From positions 1 through 64,000 of the forward strand of contig JABCYQ010000011.1 in assembly GCA_013290125.1 (NCBI GenBank): 64,000 bases of DNA, read 5' to 3'. A model generated the notes under the pieces. It worked only from the letters and a program-made list of their open reading frames with translations. It had not been told where the DNA came from and did no database searches. The translations under genes and the position numbers were made by a program. This DNA comes from Vulcanimicrobiota bacterium. GTDB taxonomy: Bacteria > Vulcanimicrobiota > Vulcanimicrobiia > Eremiobacterales > Eremiobacteraceae. Positions 16,885 through 63,413 of this stretch are shown piece by piece. Each line of letters opens with the position of its first letter. The first letter of the stretch is position 1.

Positions 16885-16970
16885 ATGAAGGGGCCGACTT
16901 TATGTCGGCCCACGTTTCGTCCCTAGGAATCTGAAGGGGCCGACGCTAGTCGGCCCCTTCCGTTTTGCGC
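16885..16970. terminator. two GGGCCGAC hairpins, the second terminator-like
   Basis: The first unit is GGGCCGAC-TTTAT-GTCGGCCC. The second is a perfect 12-bp inverted repeat GAAGGGGCCGAC-GCTA-GTCGGCCCCTTC at 16933-16960, followed by CGTTTTG. It lies between the ends of convergent genes (peptidase E on plus, EAL protein on minus) and could terminate both. This is the most symmetric copy of the repeat in the window. Confidence 0.7.
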
Positions 16971-23973: not shown

Positions 23974-24038
23974 CGTGGGCCGACTAGCGTCGGCCCCTTC
24001 AGAAAATCGGAAAGAAAATCGGACCGGAAATCGGACGA
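23974..24038. repeat. GGGCCGAC hairpin followed by short GAAAATCGGA tandem copies
   Basis: A hairpin GGGCCGAC-TAGC-GTCGGCCC in reverse orientation ends in CCTTCAG, followed by three imperfect copies of GAAAATCGGA (24002-24038). It lies between the ferredoxin stop and the small membrane frame, both on the minus strand. Confidence 0.75.
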
Positions 24039-31891: not shown

Positions 31892-31985
31892 CTGAAGGGG
31901 CCGACTTTCTGAACGGGCCGACTTCTGAAGGGGCCGACTTTCTGAACGGGCCGACTTCTGAAGGGGCCGACTTTATGTCGGCCCT
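31892..31985. repeat. tandem GGGCCGAC array with 33-bp period
   Basis: A 33-bp unit made of two half arms, CTGAAGGGGCCGACTTT and CTGAACGGGCCGACTT, occurs twice in tandem. A complete hairpin GGGCCGAC-TTTAT-GTCGGCCC and TCGTTTT follow. Only the last copy has a right arm, so the array looks like 5'-end duplications of the repeat. It fills the rpsA-coaE gap and may terminate rpsA transcription. Confidence 0.88.
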
Positions 31986-40858: not shown

Positions 40859-43387
40859 TCACTGTCCGAAGCTCTGGTTGACGATCGGCCCTGAGTTGTT
40901 GATGCCGAAGTTCACCGCCTGGTTCGGGAACGCGAGCAGGTTCAGCGAGAAGTCCACTTCTTTCAACGCCTGCCGATACGCGACGCGGATCTGATAGCAA
41001 TTCTCGACCGTATGCGTCAGGAAGTACGACTGGTTTTGCAGACCGTGCAGTTTGAAGTCGTAGTCGCCTTGGAATTCTAAGTAGTCGTTCTTGCCGATGG
41101 GCGTTGCGAGTGAGATGTTGGTGGGCCCGTAGCCCGGACGCTGAACACCAGCCACGCCGTTCGGATCGTAGGTCGTTCCAAGGCTCACGCTCGTGACCGG
41201 AGTGGGTTGCCACAAGAACTGATACGAGACCGGGCTGAGCAGCTTTTGATGGAAGTCGTAGTCCGTGGACGCGCTGAAGCGATACGTGCTTCCGCTGTAG
41301 ACGTTGAGCACCTCGCCGAGTTGGTCTTGGCCGGTCGCGGAATCGAACGACGGCATCGGCGTAAAGCCGCGCACGCTCATCTCGTCGTACGAGAGTGTGT
41401 TGTCCGCGTGCGTGCCGAAAAGCGTGCGCAATTCCAGCGATTCGCCGATCGTGCCGAGCAAGTCGCCGGTGCCGTACATATCCTGGCGGATCGTGCCGGT
41501 CGCAGTGACGTCGGAATTCTGGCCGATCGGGAAAAAGGCGCTGCCGATCTGCGACGTGATGTCCAGCCTCGACGTCTTGATCCCCGTGGGCCGGTAGTCG
41601 AACTGATCGTTGTAGATGCCGTCGGTCACGGTGACGGTCAACGGCAGCCGCAGCGAAGAGATCTGGAACGGCCGCGAGCGGAGCGTCAGCTCCGGCACTT
41701 TCTGAAATCCTTGCGTGTCCGCGACCGTGCCGGGGACTGGCGTCGCGCCGGCGGTCGGGGCCGGCTGCGGATTGGTTATCTGTTCACCGTGCGACGTATC
41801 GATCACGAGATCGCCGTCGAACAGCGGTGCCGTGAAATGCGTGTCGGCCGTGAAGTTGACCTGGCGCGAGTACGAGCCCGGGTTCGTGTTGCCTTGGAAC
41901 TGCAGGCCGATCGCTTGGCTGAACGTGGGCGTGAAGTTGATGATGTGGTTCACGCTCGCGCCAAGGCTGCTCGAAGATCCCGTGGTCGAGACGTTGCCGA
42001 CATACGACGTCGTGCTTCTCGCTCCGGCGTGCGTCAGGTTGATGCCGGCAGTCGTCGTGGACGGGATACTCGACGCCACCACGCTCTGTCCGCTGTAGCT
42101 CAACTGCAGCGCTCCGCTGACGTGATGCCCGAGAATCTGGTCGACGTTGAGGGTGACCTGCTCCGACGACTTCTGTCCGGTCAGATTGCGTTGCGTCGCA
42201 TTGTTCTGCAGCGTGTAGAAACTCGCGTAGCCGCTGCCTTTGCCGTCTTGTCGGGCGAAGTAGACGTCCATACCGAGACCGATGCCGACTTTCTGGAAAT
42301 AGTCGACGTGATACGTGCCGTAGTAGTACGGACTGCGATAAAAACTGATGTACGTCCGTGCGAACACGCCCTCGGTCGTGTTGTAGCCGAGGCGCGGCGC
42401 GATCACCGACTCCCGGTGCGCCGCGACCGCGGACAGCGGCAACACGACGATTCCAAGTGCTGCGACCAAAAAATTGCCGAGGTAGAGCGCAGAGCTATGC
42501 GCGACGACCCGATCACCGGGATGGATATCGATCTCTTTGCCCGAGATATGGTAGGCGACGTGATCGAGCGAGCACGTCGTGACCCAGCCGTGATGAAGCA
42601 CGGAGCTGCCGTTCGCGGCGACGTCGAGTTCCTTACCTTTGAAATAGACGTAGCCTTGGATCGGCTCGCCTTGGAACGTGACGGCCGCCGTCTCGCCGGC
42701 GACATCATAGAGCGCGATCGTGCTCTTGACGGTGTCGAACGCCAGCGACGACGCGGTTGCCGTGTCGCCGTCGGCGCCGACGAAGTGCACGTGGCCGGTC
42801 ATGCGCACGATCTTGTCGCTGGCGGTGTAGACGGCCTGATCGCCGCTGATGTCGACGCTATTCGTCGTGAGGTGCACGTGGCCATCGGCGGTCATGTCGC
42901 TCTTGACGCTGCCGACCACGCGATCCGCGGTGATCAAAACGACGTCGGGCGGCAAGGGAGTCGCGCCCGGCGACGCGTTTGGTGAGACTGCAAACGTCTG
43001 CGTCGGCTGCGGGCCCGACTGCGGCGCGTTGCCGGTGGTCGGATATTCATCGCTGTTCGGAGCCGTTGTAGCAAAGACAGGTGGGGGTGGAGACGGCGTG
43101 GCCATCGGCGATGCCGACGGCGACGGCAGTGGCGACGGCGATGTTGTCACCGCCGGCGTCGGCGAGCTGGCCGGCGTCGGGGAATTGTCTGAAGGGGCCG
43201 ATGCTAGTCGGCCTGACATCGGGCCGACCTTTAAGGTCGGCGGCCGGACCGTTGAGGTCCGCCCTACATTTACATGACCGATGGCGATAGACGGAATTGG
43301 CGGGAACGCCAGCGCAAAGCAGAGCGCCAACGCAAAAGTCTTGCTGGCACCGTGCGCGATCCGGCGCAGCGTGCGGCGACGAGTCAA
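40859..43387 (-). CDS. lptD: LptD/OstA-like outer-membrane assembly protein
   Basis: 842 residues from a TTG at 43387. A signal peptide (ALALCFALAFPPIPSIAIG) is followed by a long Pro/Ser-rich low-complexity linker (~55-145) and then an OstA/LptA-like beta domain (ITADRVVGSVKSDMTADGHVHL... through EIDIHPGD). The C-terminal ~500 residues have the alternating aromatic pattern of a beta-barrel with LptD-like motifs such as RLGYNTTEGVFARTYISFY. LptD inserts lipopolysaccharide into the outer membrane. A GGGCCGAC repeat has entered its linker. The C-terminus ends in SFGQ. It overlaps no neighbour; LptF/G ends 31 bp upstream. Confidence 0.85.
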   Translation of the reverse strand: MTRRRTLRRIAHGASKTFALALCFALAFPPIPSIAIGHVNVGRTSTVRPPTLKVGPMSGRLASAPSDNSPTPASSPTPAVTTSPSPLPSPSASPMATPSPPPPVFATTAPNSDEYPTTGNAPQSGPQPTQTFAVSPNASPGATPLPPDVVLITADRVVGSVKSDMTADGHVHLTTNSVDISGDQAVYTASDKIVRMTGHVHFVGADGDTATASSLAFDTVKSTIALYDVAGETAAVTFQGEPIQGYVYFKGKELDVAANGSSVLHHGWVTTCSLDHVAYHISGKEIDIHPGDRVVAHSSALYLGNFLVAALGIVVLPLSAVAAHRESVIAPRLGYNTTEGVFARTYISFYRSPYYYGTYHVDYFQKVGIGLGMDVYFARQDGKGSGYASFYTLQNNATQRNLTGQKSSEQVTLNVDQILGHHVSGALQLSYSGQSVVASSIPSTTTAGINLTHAGARSTTSYVGNVSTTGSSSSLGASVNHIINFTPTFSQAIGLQFQGNTNPGSYSRQVNFTADTHFTAPLFDGDLVIDTSHGEQITNPQPAPTAGATPVPGTVADTQGFQKVPELTLRSRPFQISSLRLPLTVTVTDGIYNDQFDYRPTGIKTSRLDITSQIGSAFFPIGQNSDVTATGTIRQDMYGTGDLLGTIGESLELRTLFGTHADNTLSYDEMSVRGFTPMPSFDSATGQDQLGEVLNVYSGSTYRFSASTDYDFHQKLLSPVSYQFLWQPTPVTSVSLGTTYDPNGVAGVQRPGYGPTNISLATPIGKNDYLEFQGDYDFKLHGLQNQSYFLTHTVENCYQIRVAYRQALKEVDFSLNLLAFPNQAVNFGINNSGPIVNQSFGQ
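43189..43268. repeat. GGGCCGAC and GGACC repeats inside the lptD coding sequence
   Basis: The plus strand reads GAAGGGGCCGATGCTAGTCGGCC, then GGGCCGACCTTTAAGGTCGGC, then GGACCGTTGAGGTCCGCCCTACA: three elements of two families in a row. They are translated on the minus strand within the lptD linker (for example as GRLASAPS) without a stop. This is a clear repeat invasion of a coding region. Confidence 0.9.
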
Positions 43388-47521: not shown

Positions 47522-47640
47522 TGAAGGGGCCGACTTCACGTCGGCCCAACGTGGCGAACCCGCCCTGAAGGGGCCGACTTTATGTCGGCCCTCCTTTTTC
47601 GGTCGCGCACCCTGGGCCGACTAGCGTCGGCCCCCTTCAG
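47522..47640. repeat. three GGGCCGAC hairpins before the dcw cluster
   Basis: Copies with loops TTCAC, TTTAT and, in reverse orientation, TAGC. The second is followed by CTCCTTTTTC and resembles a terminator for the thioredoxin gene. The cluster insulates the dcw operon from the upstream gene; it lies 56 bp before the mraZ promoter -35. Confidence 0.88.
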
Positions 47641-51336: not shown

Positions 51337-52929
51337 ATGGCTCCGGTGATGCCGGTGCCGTTGCGGCAACTGCTGTCCGGAGTGAGCGGCGTCCGGATCC
51401 GCGGCAATGCCGAGATACCTATCTCCTCGATCTCCGTCGACTCCCGGCGCATCGAATCAGGTGCGCTGTTCGTCTGTTTGCAAGGCGCGCACGACGATGG
51501 ACATGCGCACGCCGCGCAAGCCGTCGCCGCCGGCGCCAGCGCCGTTCTCGCGATGTCTGATCACGCTGACATATCTGAAGGGGCCAACCAGCCTGAAGGG
51601 GCCGACGCTAGTCGGCCCGCTATCGCATTTTCTGAAGGGGCCGACGCAAGTCGGCCCGCCATCGCCGTCGCTTCGGATATCCCGCTCGCATTCGTTCCGG
51701 ACACGCTGCGCGCGCTCTCCGTTGCTGCAGCCGAATTGTATGGGCATCCATCGGACGACCTCACCGTCGTCGGCGTCACCGGCACGAACGGCAAAACCAC
51801 GACGACGCGATTTCTCGAAGCGATCATGGCTGCAGCGGGCACACCGTTCGGCCTCATCGGCACGCTCGGCGCTCGGCTCATCGGTGCGTTCGAATCGCCG
51901 TTGCCAAATACGACGCCCTTCGCACACGAACTGCAGCGATTGCTCGCCGCGTTTCGCGACGCCGGCGCGCGCGGCGCGATCATGGAAGTTTCGAGTCACG
52001 CGCTCGTGCAGCATCGCGTGGACGATGTGGATTTCGATGTCGCCGTCCTGACCAATATCACGCAAGATCATCTTGACTTTCACAAGACATTTGATGCGTA
52101 TCGTGCGGCAAAAGCGCGGCTCTTCGAGGACGTGACTCGCGGCGGCCGAAAAAGTCCTGGTGTGCGCGTCATCAACCTCGACGATCCCGAAGGCCGCCGG
52201 CTCGCGATGACGAGCGGCCGGACGCTGACCTATGCCGTGAACAATACCGATGCGGTACTGACCGCGACGGACGTCGTTATCGAGCGCGACGGCTCGACGT
52301 TTTCGGTGCCCGCCTTGCGGCCGGCGCCGTTTTCCGTTAGTCTGCCGGGTCCGTTCAACGTCGCCAATGCGCTTGCGGCGATCGCCGCCGCGTGCGCTTT
52401 GGATGTCGACGTCGAAGCCATCGCCGACGGCATCGAGGCTGTGACGGATGTGCCGGGGCGCATGTCGCGCGTAGCAGCGCGCGATCTCGGCGTGTACGTG
52501 GACTACGCTCACACACCCGACGCATTGCGCAACGTGTTGACGGCTGCACGCGCGCTCACAACAGGTAGGCTCATCTGCGTTTTCGGCTGCGGCGGCGACC
52601 GCGATGCGGCGAAGCGGCCGCTCATGGGTGCTATCGCTCGCGAATTGGCAGATCGCGTCATCGTGACCGACGACAATCCGCGCAGCGAGGATCCGTCTTT
52701 GATCCGAGAGGCGATCGTAGCCGGTATGCGCGATGGCCGCGGCGGCGAGTTCGACGTGATCGCCAATCGTGCCGCGGCGATCGACCGCGCGATCGAATCG
52801 GCCCGCGACGGCGATGCGGTGATCATCGCCGGCAAAGGCCACGAGCCGTATCAGTTGATCGGCGATCAGGTCCTGCCGTTCTCCGACGCCGCAGTCGCGC
52901 GCGAAGCGCTCGATAGGCACGGCCGGTGA
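51337..52929 (+). CDS. murE: UDP-MurNAc-L-Ala-D-Glu: meso-diaminopimelate ligase, with repeat-derived insertion
   Basis: 530 residues, ATG one codon after ftsI. The ATP site is GVTGTNGKTTTTRF (~146-160); later TNITQDHLDFH, DYAHTPDALRNVL and DNPRSEDP. DNPR is the meso-DAP specificity motif, so peptidoglycan here is DAP-type. Residues ~79-110 (ISEGANQPEGADASRPAIA...) are translated from GGGCCGAC repeats and have no counterpart in other MurE; they lie in a loop of the N-terminal UDP-binding domain. The rest of the gene looks complete and functional. Confidence 0.94.
   Translation: MAPVMPVPLRQLLSGVSGVRIRGNAEIPISSISVDSRRIESGALFVCLQGAHDDGHAHAAQAVAAGASAVLAMSDHADISEGANQPEGADASRPAIAFSEGADASRPAIAVASDIPLAFVPDTLRALSVAAAELYGHPSDDLTVVGVTGTNGKTTTTRFLEAIMAAAGTPFGLIGTLGARLIGAFESPLPNTTPFAHELQRLLAAFRDAGARGAIMEVSSHALVQHRVDDVDFDVAVLTNITQDHLDFHKTFDAYRAAKARLFEDVTRGGRKSPGVRVINLDDPEGRRLAMTSGRTLTYAVNNTDAVLTATDVVIERDGSTFSVPALRPAPFSVSLPGPFNVANALAAIAAACALDVDVEAIADGIEAVTDVPGRMSRVAARDLGVYVDYAHTPDALRNVLTAARALTTGRLICVFGCGGDRDAAKRPLMGAIARELADRVIVTDDNPRSEDPSLIREAIVAGMRDGRGGEFDVIANRAAAIDRAIESARDGDAVIIAGKGHEPYQLIGDQVLPFSDAAVAREALDRHGR
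51573..51660. repeat. GGGCCGAC repeats inside murE
   Basis: One half copy (GAAGGGGCCAACC) and two full hairpins with loops GCTA and GCAA lie in frame within murE, read as EGADASRPAIA twice. No stop or frameshift results. They are flanked on both sides by ordinary murE sequence. Confidence 0.93.
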
Positions 52930-54323
52930 GCACGCTTTCGCTCGCGGATTTCGCCAAGGCGGCGCGTTCGACGTGGCGCGGGCCCGAGACCGATCTCGGT
53001 GCGCCGTTTCGTCCAAGCACCGACTCGCGCACGATCGCGCTCGGCGAAGTCTTCGTCGCGCTGCGCGGTCCATCGTTCGACGGCAATGCGTTTGCAAAGG
53101 CGGCGCTTGCGCGCGGCTGCCGTGCACTCGTCCTCGATGATACCGCCGCCGTGCCTGATCCGAGCCCAGTTCCATACATGTTGGTTACGGACGCAAAAGC
53201 TGCATACATCGCCGGCGCCGCGGCCGCGCGGCGCGCGTCCGACGCGCAAGTCGTCGGCATCACCGGCAGCAATGGCAAGACCACGACGAAAGCCATGGCG
53301 ACACAACTGGTCGGTCTGCGTTTCCACACGCTCGCCACGCCGCAGAACGAGAACAACGAGCTCGGCGTGGCGAAGATCTGCTATCTACTTGGCGACGACG
53401 TCGATGTGGCGATCGTGGAGATGGGCGCGCGCCATCCCGGCGAAATCGCGCAATTGGTGGAGATCGCAGCTCCGGATGTCGGCGTGTTGACAAATGTCGG
53501 CGAAGCGCATCTCGAATATTTCGAAGACCGAGAAGATCTCGCGCGCACGAAATTCGCGCTATTCGCGGGCGACGCTCGCGCCGTCTGCAATGCGGGCGAC
53601 GAGTGGTCGCGCATGCTCGCCGCCGAAGAAGGCATCGATAAGGATGCGCTCTGGATCCGTCTGGCGGGCGATCACGCGGTGGCCGGTCGCACGCTGGAAG
53701 CCAGTCAGCCGAAAGATGGTCATGTCGAAGTTACGTACGGCGCACTGCACGCGTGGGTCGAGTGGCATCTCGCGGGCGAGCATCATCTTCGCGACGCGCT
53801 GCTCGCCGCGGGCGCGGCGATCATGTGCGGCGTCTCGTTCGAAGCTGCGGCAGCCGGCTTTGGCGCGCTGCATCTTCCCGAAGGACGCTTCGAATTGCAC
53901 GCGCTGCCGTCCGGCGCGACATGTGTGTACGATGCCTACAACGCGAACCCGACATCTGTTGCGCATGCGTTGCTCGCGTTCGCAGACATTCCGGCGCAGC
54001 GTCGCTTTGCCGTTCTCGGCAGCATGGCAGAACTCGGTCCGGAAGTCGAAGCGATGCATCGCGCGACCGGCGCCGCGGCAGCACGCGCTTCCTTGGACGC
54101 ACTGTACTGCGGCGGGCCATACGCGCGCGCGCTGATCGAGGGCGCGCGCAAAGCGGGCATGCCTGAGGCGTCAGTTAGGCAGTACGAGTCCAATTCGGAG
54201 ATCGCCGCTGTTCTCGCGAACACGCTTCGCTCGGGCGATGCAGTGCTGCTCAAAGGTTCGCGCGTACAACGGATGGAGGAGATACTGCAGGCGCTGCTGG
54301 CCGGCGAGAAGCGCGCGTCATGA
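52926..54323 (+). CDS. murF: UDP-MurNAc-tripeptide: D-Ala-D-Ala ligase
   Basis: 465 residues from a GTG overlapping murE by 4 bases. Mur ligase motifs: GITGSNGKTTTKAM (P-loop), NTVGEAH-like LTNVGEAHLEYF, and YDAYNANPTSVAHALLAF, the MurF-specific NANPxS segment. It adds D-Ala-D-Ala to the UDP-MurNAc tripeptide in the cytoplasm. The next gene, CofE-like, starts 4 bases before its stop. Confidence 0.94.
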   Translation: MSTLSLADFAKAARSTWRGPETDLGAPFRPSTDSRTIALGEVFVALRGPSFDGNAFAKAALARGCRALVLDDTAAVPDPSPVPYMLVTDAKAAYIAGAAAARRASDAQVVGITGSNGKTTTKAMATQLVGLRFHTLATPQNENNELGVAKICYLLGDDVDVAIVEMGARHPGEIAQLVEIAAPDVGVLTNVGEAHLEYFEDREDLARTKFALFAGDARAVCNAGDEWSRMLAAEEGIDKDALWIRLAGDHAVAGRTLEASQPKDGHVEVTYGALHAWVEWHLAGEHHLRDALLAAGAAIMCGVSFEAAAAGFGALHLPEGRFELHALPSGATCVYDAYNANPTSVAHALLAFADIPAQRRFAVLGSMAELGPEVEAMHRATGAAAARASLDALYCGGPYARALIEGARKAGMPEASVRQYESNSEIAAVLANTLRSGDAVLLKGSRVQRMEEILQALLAGEKRAS

Positions 54324-55036
54324 ATCGTCGCACGTTTGTCGTCGCGCCGCCGGGACTTCCGCCGCGCATCGTCGCCATCCCCGTGCGCACGCCGCTCGTG
54401 CGCAAGGGCGACGACCTGCCTGCGCTTATCGCGCAATGCGTTCATGGCATCGCTTCTGCAGAAGACGTCGTCTGCGTTTCAGAGACAGCCGTCGCGATCG
54501 CTCAAGGCCGATCTGTCGCCGCGGAATTCGTGCGGCCGACGCTGCTCGCGCGACTGCTCGCCGAACGCGCCGGCCCGTACGCAACCGTCAATCAACCCGA
54601 ATCCATGCAGCTGGTGATGGACAACGTTGGCGCATGGAAAGTGCTGTATGCATCCGCCGCTTCGGCCGCCGGAAAACTCGTCGGCCGTCACGGAGACTTC
54701 TATCGCATTCTCGGGTCGGCCGTCGCCGAGATCGATGGCTACACCGGCACGATGCCGCCGTATGAGCGGCACATCGTCTTTGGTCCGGAGCGGCCTGGCG
54801 AAGCGGCTGTCGCGATCGCGAACGCATGTGGTGCGCTAGTCGTCATCGTCGACGTCAACGACCTGGCGAAAGTGAATGTCCTCGGGGCAAGTGCGGGCGT
54901 GAATCTCGACGCGGTCATGGCGTGCTTGCGTGAAAATCCGCACGGCAACAGCGATCAGCAGACGCCGATCGTCGTGCTCAAGTATCGACCGCAATCCGGC
55001 TCGCCGCCGCAAAGCCCGTTTAGGGTGCGCTCCTGA
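54320..55036 (+). CDS. CofE-like (F420-0:gamma-glutamyl ligase family) protein in the dcw cluster
   Basis: 238 residues; ATG overlaps murF and its stop overlaps the mraY start. VRTPLVRKGDDLPALIAQCV, EDVVCVSETAVAIAQGRSV and the later DGYTGTMPPYERHIVFGP, then IVDVNDLAKVNVLGAS, match the PF01996 family, which adds glutamate residues to coenzyme F420 with GTP. No other F420 gene is in the window, and translational coupling with murF and mraY points to a peptidoglycan-precursor role instead. It is not an F420 assignment on this evidence; function is open. Confidence 0.78.
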   Translation: MNRRTFVVAPPGLPPRIVAIPVRTPLVRKGDDLPALIAQCVHGIASAEDVVCVSETAVAIAQGRSVAAEFVRPTLLARLLAERAGPYATVNQPESMQLVMDNVGAWKVLYASAASAAGKLVGRHGDFYRILGSAVAEIDGYTGTMPPYERHIVFGPERPGEAAVAIANACGALVVIVDVNDLAKVNVLGASAGVNLDAVMACLRENPHGNSDQQTPIVVLKYRPQSGSPPQSPFRVRS

Positions 55037-62198: not shown

Positions 62199-62233
62199 CT
62201 CGAATCGAAGGGGCCGACGTTAGTCGGCCCACG
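62199..62233. repeat. GGGCCGAC hairpin repeat
   Basis: A full copy with loop GTTA, directly after the murB stop and followed by CACGCTACG. It separates the mur genes from the toxin-antitoxin promoter and may terminate the dcw transcript. Confidence 0.85.
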
Positions 62234-62346: not shown

Positions 62347-62745
62347 ATGGCTATCTACGCACCGTCCCCCGAACTGGAAAACCTGGACATAGAACCGGCG
62401 CTCGTCTTGCCGGCGCTCTTCCGCGTTGTCCAGACATGGGGACTGACGAACGCCGAAACAGCTCGACTATTGGGCTTGGATTCGGCGTCCACGATCTATG
62501 CCTGGCGCAGAGGCGCGACGCGTATCGGCTCCGAGAAGATCGAGCGCATCGGCCACATCTTGTGGATATACGAGATGCTGCACTCGCTCTTCGGTGAAGG
62601 CGCGGCCTCCGACGGCTGGCCGAAGCGGCCCAACGACGGCGCTCCGTTCAACGGACGCAAGCCGGTTGAGCTGTTATGCTCCGGCCGCTTTGCAGACATC
62701 GTGAAGATCTACGAGGCGTTATTTCGAAAAACCCAAGGTTGGTGA
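62347..62745 (+). CDS. Xre/MbcA/ParS-type antitoxin (DUF2384)
   Basis: 132 residues from the ATG at 62347; no Shine-Dalgarno is visible. An N-terminal HTH-like region (LPALFRVVQTWGLTNAETARLLGLDSASTIYAWRRG) is followed by the DUF2384 toxin-binding part ending FNGRKPVELLCSGRFADIVKIYEALF. Such antitoxins bind the active site of RES toxins and repress their own promoter. It overlaps the toxin by 4 bases. Confidence 0.88.
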   Translation: MAIYAPSPELENLDIEPALVLPALFRVVQTWGLTNAETARLLGLDSASTIYAWRRGATRIGSEKIERIGHILWIYEMLHSLFGEGAASDGWPKRPNDGAPFNGRKPVELLCSGRFADIVKIYEALFRKTQGW

Positions 62746-63413
62746 CGCTGCGCCGAATTCGGCGCAGGCTAAAGATAGCGCCGTCGTGGAGAATCATCTC
62801 GCCGCCGCAAAACAGAATTCTATTGGGAATCGTCGGCGAAGAGCGACGCGCCGTCGAGGCGACGCTCGCACGCTTCAGCCCCTACGCGCATCTCGTCGAA
62901 AACCTCGGCCCGAGTGTGAAGGCGATGATCGCAACCCCAGGCATCGACGTGCTGCTGGCGCCATTTGCCTTCCCCGGGCCAAGTCGATTCAGCCGCGGTG
63001 ACTTCGGTGTTTACTACGCAAGCGCGGATCTCAAAACAGCTATCGCCGAGACGCGCTACCATCGCGCCCTCGCCCTTGCTGAATCCCATTCGCCCGACGC
63101 GCGATTGCCCGTAACCGCGTTCACAGCAGTCATCGACGCGATGCTCGAAGACATCCGCGGCATGCAGACGACGTTGCCGGGCTGCTATCATCCGACCGAC
63201 TACCGCGAGAGCCAGGCGTACGGCGCATTGGTCAAGCGTCGCGCTAGCCCCGGCATCGCTTACGACAGCGTCCGGCGTGCGGGCGGCCAATGTTTCGGCA
63301 TATTTGATCCAAGAGCACTGTCAGATTGCGCGCGCGTGCATGACCTGGAATACGAATGGGATGGCGCAACGCAGACGATGACAAAGACTCGCATGGAGAT
63401 ATCTATCGATTAG
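62742..63413 (+). CDS. RES-domain toxin (NAD+ depleting)
   Basis: 223 residues from a GTG overlapping the antitoxin stop; the longer frame from 62676 lies inside the antitoxin. RES signatures: SRFSRGDFGVYYASADLKTAIAETRYH with the key Arg (82 or 85) and Glu (103), and YDSVRRAGGQCFGIFDP with the Ser. RES toxins (for example Res, MbcT) degrade NAD+ and stop growth. The domain begins about 25 residues in, after a basic head. The next gene is ddl, 24 bp downstream. Confidence 0.88.
   Translation: MTLRRIRRRLKIAPSWRIISPPQNRILLGIVGEERRAVEATLARFSPYAHLVENLGPSVKAMIATPGIDVLLAPFAFPGPSRFSRGDFGVYYASADLKTAIAETRYHRALALAESHSPDARLPVTAFTAVIDAMLEDIRGMQTTLPGCYHPTDYRESQAYGALVKRRASPGIAYDSVRRAGGQCFGIFDPRALSDCARVHDLEYEWDGATQTMTKTRMEISID

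Follow-up and report, generated by a model that had tools for sequence, protein, structure and literature searches.

The essential, single-copy gene murE of this Vulcanimicrobiota genome (G000) carries in-frame copies of a short palindromic repeat, and this insert is very probably a RAYT-associated REP copy that entered a loop of the enzyme in an ancestor shared with the sister species (G001) and has been kept as harmless. A sequence-only reading of the region had described an in-frame invasion of essential murE by a repeat that the enzyme tolerates, and this was borne out. Coordinates given without a contig or locus refer to the window, the whole 64,000-nt stretch of DNA that was analysed. 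The gene and its repeat copies are as follows:

51337–52929, + strand: murE, UDP-N-acetylmuramyl-tripeptide synthetase, 530 aa, the sole copy in the genome
51575–51592, + strand: head-only half copy of the REP, CT-GAAGGGGCC..., coding EGANQP
51595–51618, + strand: full REP copy 1, GAAGGGGCCGACGCTAGTCGGCCC, coding EGADASRP, with an 8-bp stem and a 4-nt loop
51619–51631, + strand: 8 bp of duplicated host-type flank (GCTATCGC) and an ATTTT spacer (34-nt direct repeat)
51634–51657, + strand: full REP copy 2, GAAGGGGCCGACGCAAGTCGGCCC, coding EGADASRP

Repeat copies within the murE reading frame

The open reading frame was confirmed as murE by its three Mur ligase domains (N, middle and C; Pfam), a TIGR01085 score of 495 bits and the presence of the conserved catalytic residues, and no second match was found in the genome at E<=1e-60. 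It lies in a mur/fts cell-wall cluster whose genes, named from Pfam families and gene order, are mraW, ftsI, murE, murF, mraY, murD, ftsW, murC and murB. The cluster also includes, at 54320–55036 between murF and mraY, a gene whose product has an F420-0:gamma-glutamyl ligase domain (Pfam), and a likely Xre-RES toxin-antitoxin pair (Xre-like HTH and RES domains, Pfam) lies directly 3' of murB at 62347–63413.

The insert stretch, 51573–51665, consists of a head-only copy (CT-GAAGGGGCCAACCAG) followed by two full copies of the form GAAGGGGCCGACGC(T/A)AGTCGGCCC. The two full hairpins and one half copy described from the sequence are all present (half copy from 51577, where GAAGGGGCCAACCAG begins; 51595–51618; 51634–51657), and the reading frame through them is intact and free of stop codons. 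The full copies differ from each other at two positions, both synonymous, and stand 39 bp apart; the half copy precedes the next head by 18 nt. Both full copies have the same orientation and are singlets, with no inverted doublet. Two measures in the earlier description needed adjustment. Its 28-bp core is a repeat of 24 nt, or 26 nt with the preceding CT, and the 34-nt direct repeat takes in 8 bp of 3' flank; its addition of about 30 residues corresponds to a net gain of 33 relative to family members lacking the insert, versus 19 relative to the sister species.

The repeat is a GAAG-headed REP

The repeat unit is a GC-rich 24-nt palindrome with a short loop, found in high copy number and mostly outside genes, as is typical of REPs. 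A 21-nt core pattern gave 13 matches in the window, where shuffles predicted 0.18, and 112 forward and 108 reverse matches in this genome (counts that overlap, many palindromic sites scoring on both strands); a reversed-pattern control gave 0 and 1. In the sister species the counts are roughly doubled (215 and 202); the congener G002 has none, and no other family member has more than four. A stricter scan was run on 1.19 Mb of the genome (813 kb from complete contigs and the window, the remainder picked around known copies; ~90% coding) and returned 261 copies, 230 of them intergenic, 25 at gene edges and six inside called genes; the reversed pattern matched once. Chance similarity of the murE insert to the repeat was ruled out by the window, genome-wide and strict-scan counts alike.

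Inverted doublets at a fixed spacing are over-represented genome-wide, as in REPINs: 61 head-to-head doublets were counted, with a 15-nt inner spacing in 41 and several loop types mixed within doublets. The murE copies themselves do not form one. Head-only copies preceded another head in 52 of 66 cases, mostly at a spacing of 13–21 nt; since this arrangement is common in the genome, the layout in murE is a usual one for the element. Nearly all copies are headed GAAG and not GT(A/G)G, which is a small variant, and by the features set out in PMC2817692 the element is the REP/REPIN of a RAYT in this GAAG-headed form. A CT directly before GAAG was present in 143 of the 261 full copies (55%) and in 52% of head-only copies, against an intergenic background of 5%.

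Half copies with the head alone (CT-GAAGGGGCC..., in units of 16–20 bp) were also observed in tandem runs directly before another head, always co-oriented; examples are L165 (G000 C2:129366-129426), L166 (G000 C2:150806-150860) and L177 (G000 C5:121801-121833). These runs possibly stem from slippage or from successive rounds of cutting and joining at CT.

A RAYT gene within a REP array

This genome has one Y1 transposase gene, which scores 91.8 bits against the NCBI RAYT model NF047646 (cut-off 80). It is located at a contig start within a REP array, and its open reading frame (L125:229-741) has four REP heads on the left and four inverted heads on the right, the arrangement of a REPtron. The frame runs into the first REPs of the right-hand array, giving a REP-coded C-terminus.

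Published work has linked letters three and four of the head to the choice of CT cleavage site (PMC8266576), and GAAG agrees with the published GT(A/G)G at both of these letters. By analogy, the same link may apply to the GAAG system, and the CT that precedes GAAG in 55% of copies would fit cleavage at CT as described there.

No close homologue of the L125 RAYT was detected in the sister species, despite its roughly twofold number of core matches. Either an assembly gap in a repeat array or loss of the transposase while the REPs survive would account for this. The sole Y1 transposase of the sister species (L133:1201-2010) is a different RAYT, 36% identical to that of L125, flanked by GTAGGGCGGACCTTTATGGTCCGCC arrays and associated with GTAGGGCGGACC repeats; the repeat head of this second family is GTAG, and the gene was rejected as partner of the GAAG REP. 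Sequences related to the L133 repeats (GGTCCGCCCTAC) occur in this genome at about 43220–43274 and at L125:830-840.

The insertion probably predates the split from the sister species

The AVLA-to-DTL segment of MurE has 56 residues here and 37 in G001, against 22–23 in G002 and ten further members of the family. The murE of G001, which lies on a 105-kb contig in the same neighbourhood as here, has a half copy and a single full copy at matching codons. Its net gain, 14 codons, roughly equals this REP DNA in length; the half-copy counterpart there codes EGPNSP. Because the insert is present in the sister at the same codons and absent from eleven relatives, it is derived, and comparison of these sequences indicates that it is most likely older than the split of the two species. 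Relatives sharing the segment in different DNA had been named in advance as the finding that would speak for a true ancestral loop; alignment showed eleven family members without the segment, and the insertion stands. That the segment is an ancestral MurE loop merely resembling the repeat is scarcely credible: the same loop reaches 34 residues, and once 70, in a survey of ~80 diverse bacteria in which nearly all have 21–34, but its 22–23 residues in eleven family members, and DNA that exactly copies a repeat with hundreds of intergenic copies, led us to reject this explanation. An assembly error is hardly more plausible. Both genomes are drafts, repeats break contigs, and the RAYT itself stands at the start of a contig, within a REP array; however, the separately assembled sister has a REP at the same murE codons on its 105-kb contig, and the murE copies here differ from each other.

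Relative to G001, murE is longer by 57 bp here, made up of a 39-bp unit and 18 bp at the 5' side. In the 39-bp unit the hairpin recurs together with 8 bp matching the host flank of G001, where the single-copy downstream flank is CCATTGCGATCGC. As the unit carries these 8 bp of host flank, tandem duplication is favoured, and the extra copy here probably arose by a 39-bp event of this kind. A second REP arrival in this species, or loss of a copy in G001, may be the alternative. It is rather unlikely that the two full copies are separate arrivals or the remnant of an inverted doublet: clustered and tandem REPs are common in this genome, but the shared 8 bp downstream match the host flank, unlike the element's usual spacer, and the murE copies have the same orientation, unlike those of doublets. 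The exact inserted unit was inferred from lengths, since no insert-free murE is available at high DNA identity (MurE of G002 is 73% identical).

A course of events consistent with these comparisons can be proposed for the harmless REP insertion. The RAYT would cut single-stranded DNA at the CT beside the head, and a head with one hairpin would be joined into the murE loop, a net 42 nt or 14 codons. The repeat has a TGA at its left edge that the frame used misses, so that the open reading frame would survive. In this species, slippage or recombination at the locus would then have produced a tandem duplicate of the hairpin and 8 bp of host flank (39 bp, 13 codons), with no second arrival, and the REP peptide in MurE would be tolerated filler, unselected.

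The insert occupies a predicted disordered loop

An AlphaFold2 model of MurE built from 46 sequences had a mean pLDDT of 92, mostly above 90 outside the insert, and matched the solved MurE structures 2wtz, 2xja and 4c13 with TM-scores of 0.85–0.92. In this model the insert lies in the N-terminal domain between strands 67–73 and 117–120, without secondary structure, and residues 81 to 110 form a block with pLDDT of 41–62. The insert is thus predicted to be a disordered loop that leaves the remainder of MurE intact. No invariant or near-invariant alignment column was found at residues 67 to 138. Between this species and G001, murE has a dS of 0.55 and a dN/dS of 0.085; it is under purifying selection, and on this low ratio the gene looks functional in both species. 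Within it, dN/dS is highest in the loop region (0.43), a value taken on the few codons (26) that it contains.

The repeat insertion had been thought to suggest selection for a surface loop. Eight REP loci of the window could be placed on a sister contig, and four of these (31894–31984, 43191, murE and 62207) are shared. The intergenic copies are:

16887–16960, no strand assigned: intergenic REP copies (same family), missing from the matching site in the sister
23977–24000, - strand: intergenic REP copy, absent at the matching site in the sister
31894–31984, + strand: intergenic REP cluster, common to the sister
43191–43214, + strand: intergenic REP copy, common to the sister (four copies there)
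47523–47637, no strand assigned: intergenic REP cluster, absent at the matching site in the sister
62207–62230, + strand: intergenic REP copy, common to the sister

Copy number also varies outside murE, with one full copy at locus 43191 here and four in the sister, and in both its retention and its copy-number change the murE insert resembles the intergenic loci. The sister comparison, dN/dS and the eight window loci gave no sign of selection for the murE loop: this loop was short ancestrally and varies in length, its insert differs between the sisters in length and sequence, and the selection claim was not upheld. We accordingly regard it as improbable that the REP peptide persisted and was later doubled because a longer surface loop is useful, for example in partner binding or regulation. 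The insert has been kept in two species since before a dS of 0.55, has gained an extra copy here, and its two full copies differ at synonymous sites alone. Against this, half of the comparable intergenic loci have also been retained and likewise vary in copy number, the loop has the top dN/dS of the gene, and it is predicted to be disordered and has remained short in the rest of the family.

One weak point speaks the other way: the murE copy of G001 and the first copy here have identical 24-nt cores, which by our arithmetic would be expected ~4% of the time from synonymous divergence. At this single locus, gene conversion or a constraint on the hairpin could have left the core unchanged. A broader proposal cites the same basis, a hairpin core unchanged while synonymous sites stand at dS 0.55: that the MurE REP loop has been taken into use, or the hairpin itself maintained, with the RAYT so supplying in-frame loop modules to a few proteins of the genus. 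We consider this, too, a long shot, and favour the harmless insertion.

Few other genes are touched by the repeat

The further claim, of protein remodelling by the element, was overstated and applies just at the margins, since six of 261 copies in 1.19 Mb (~90% coding) fall in called genes, and just two of the genes are credible. The second credible mid-gene case is a LUD-domain gene (G000 C1:4218-4901) with REP-coded residues in an N-terminal linker; its orthologue in G001, of which 0.39 Mb was read, has different REP copies at the linker, and that of G002 has none. The REP sites of the LUD gene are L242:2027-2089 and L243:2026-2146. Three of the six intragenic matches fall in an open reading frame (C2:236581-237702) judged spurious from its low coding score and lack of a Pfam domain, and many fuzzy intragenic matches, which disappeared under the stricter pattern, were judged to be chance.

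REPs meet the ends of genes more often than their interiors. There, the TGA of TGAAGGGG, the left edge of the REP, serves as the stop codon of about nine genes in the sampled stretches, and about six genes, among them those for type III pantothenate kinase and tRNA-guanine transglycosylase, have an EGADxSRP-type protein tail. The tail of the tRNA-guanine transglycosylase is missing in both congeners. A 760-aa sister gene has a REP-like stretch; its orthologue here runs off a contig end.

Comparison with known intragenic repeats

The murE insertion is real and rare, yet of a kind already described in other bacteria; it extends the published intragenic REPs and opens no new class. As an example it is clean: the REP lies in an essential enzyme with a single gene copy, and the sister, together with eleven further members of the family, provides the controls for before and after insertion. 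Selection filters insertions of this kind: nearly all copies lie outside genes, and survivors are found in disordered loops, N-terminal linkers or C-terminal tails, read in one of the small number of frames without a stop. A literature search returned no relevant paper on palindromic insertions in frame within MurE.

Di Nocera et al. 2013 (PMC3733652) reported REPs within genes, groups of copies that encode 20–30 residues and REP ends that provide stop codons; in their view insertions may be neutral, being in flexible linkers or loops. Those GTAG-tagged REPs are alike in being tagged palindromes in frame within genes for known proteins, with a RAYT in the genome. They differ in that the head here is GAAG, relatives from before and after the insertion are available, and the host gene is murE, which is absent from the main text of that paper. 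REPINs and RAYTs (PMC3116915, PMC2817692) share with this system short palindromes with a tetranucleotide head, many inverted doublets, a mostly extragenic location and a RAYT flanked by inverted REPs; the differences here are the GAAG head, the many head-only half copies 13–21 nt before another head, and the singlets in murE. Rickettsia palindromic elements (RPE; summarised in PMC3733652) are also in-frame palindromic repeats in protein genes that are likely still functional. Their sequences end in CGTC, and CGTC repeats have no dedicated transposase (PMC3733652), whereas the repeat described here has a GAAG head and a RAYT, and its intragenic copies are rare.
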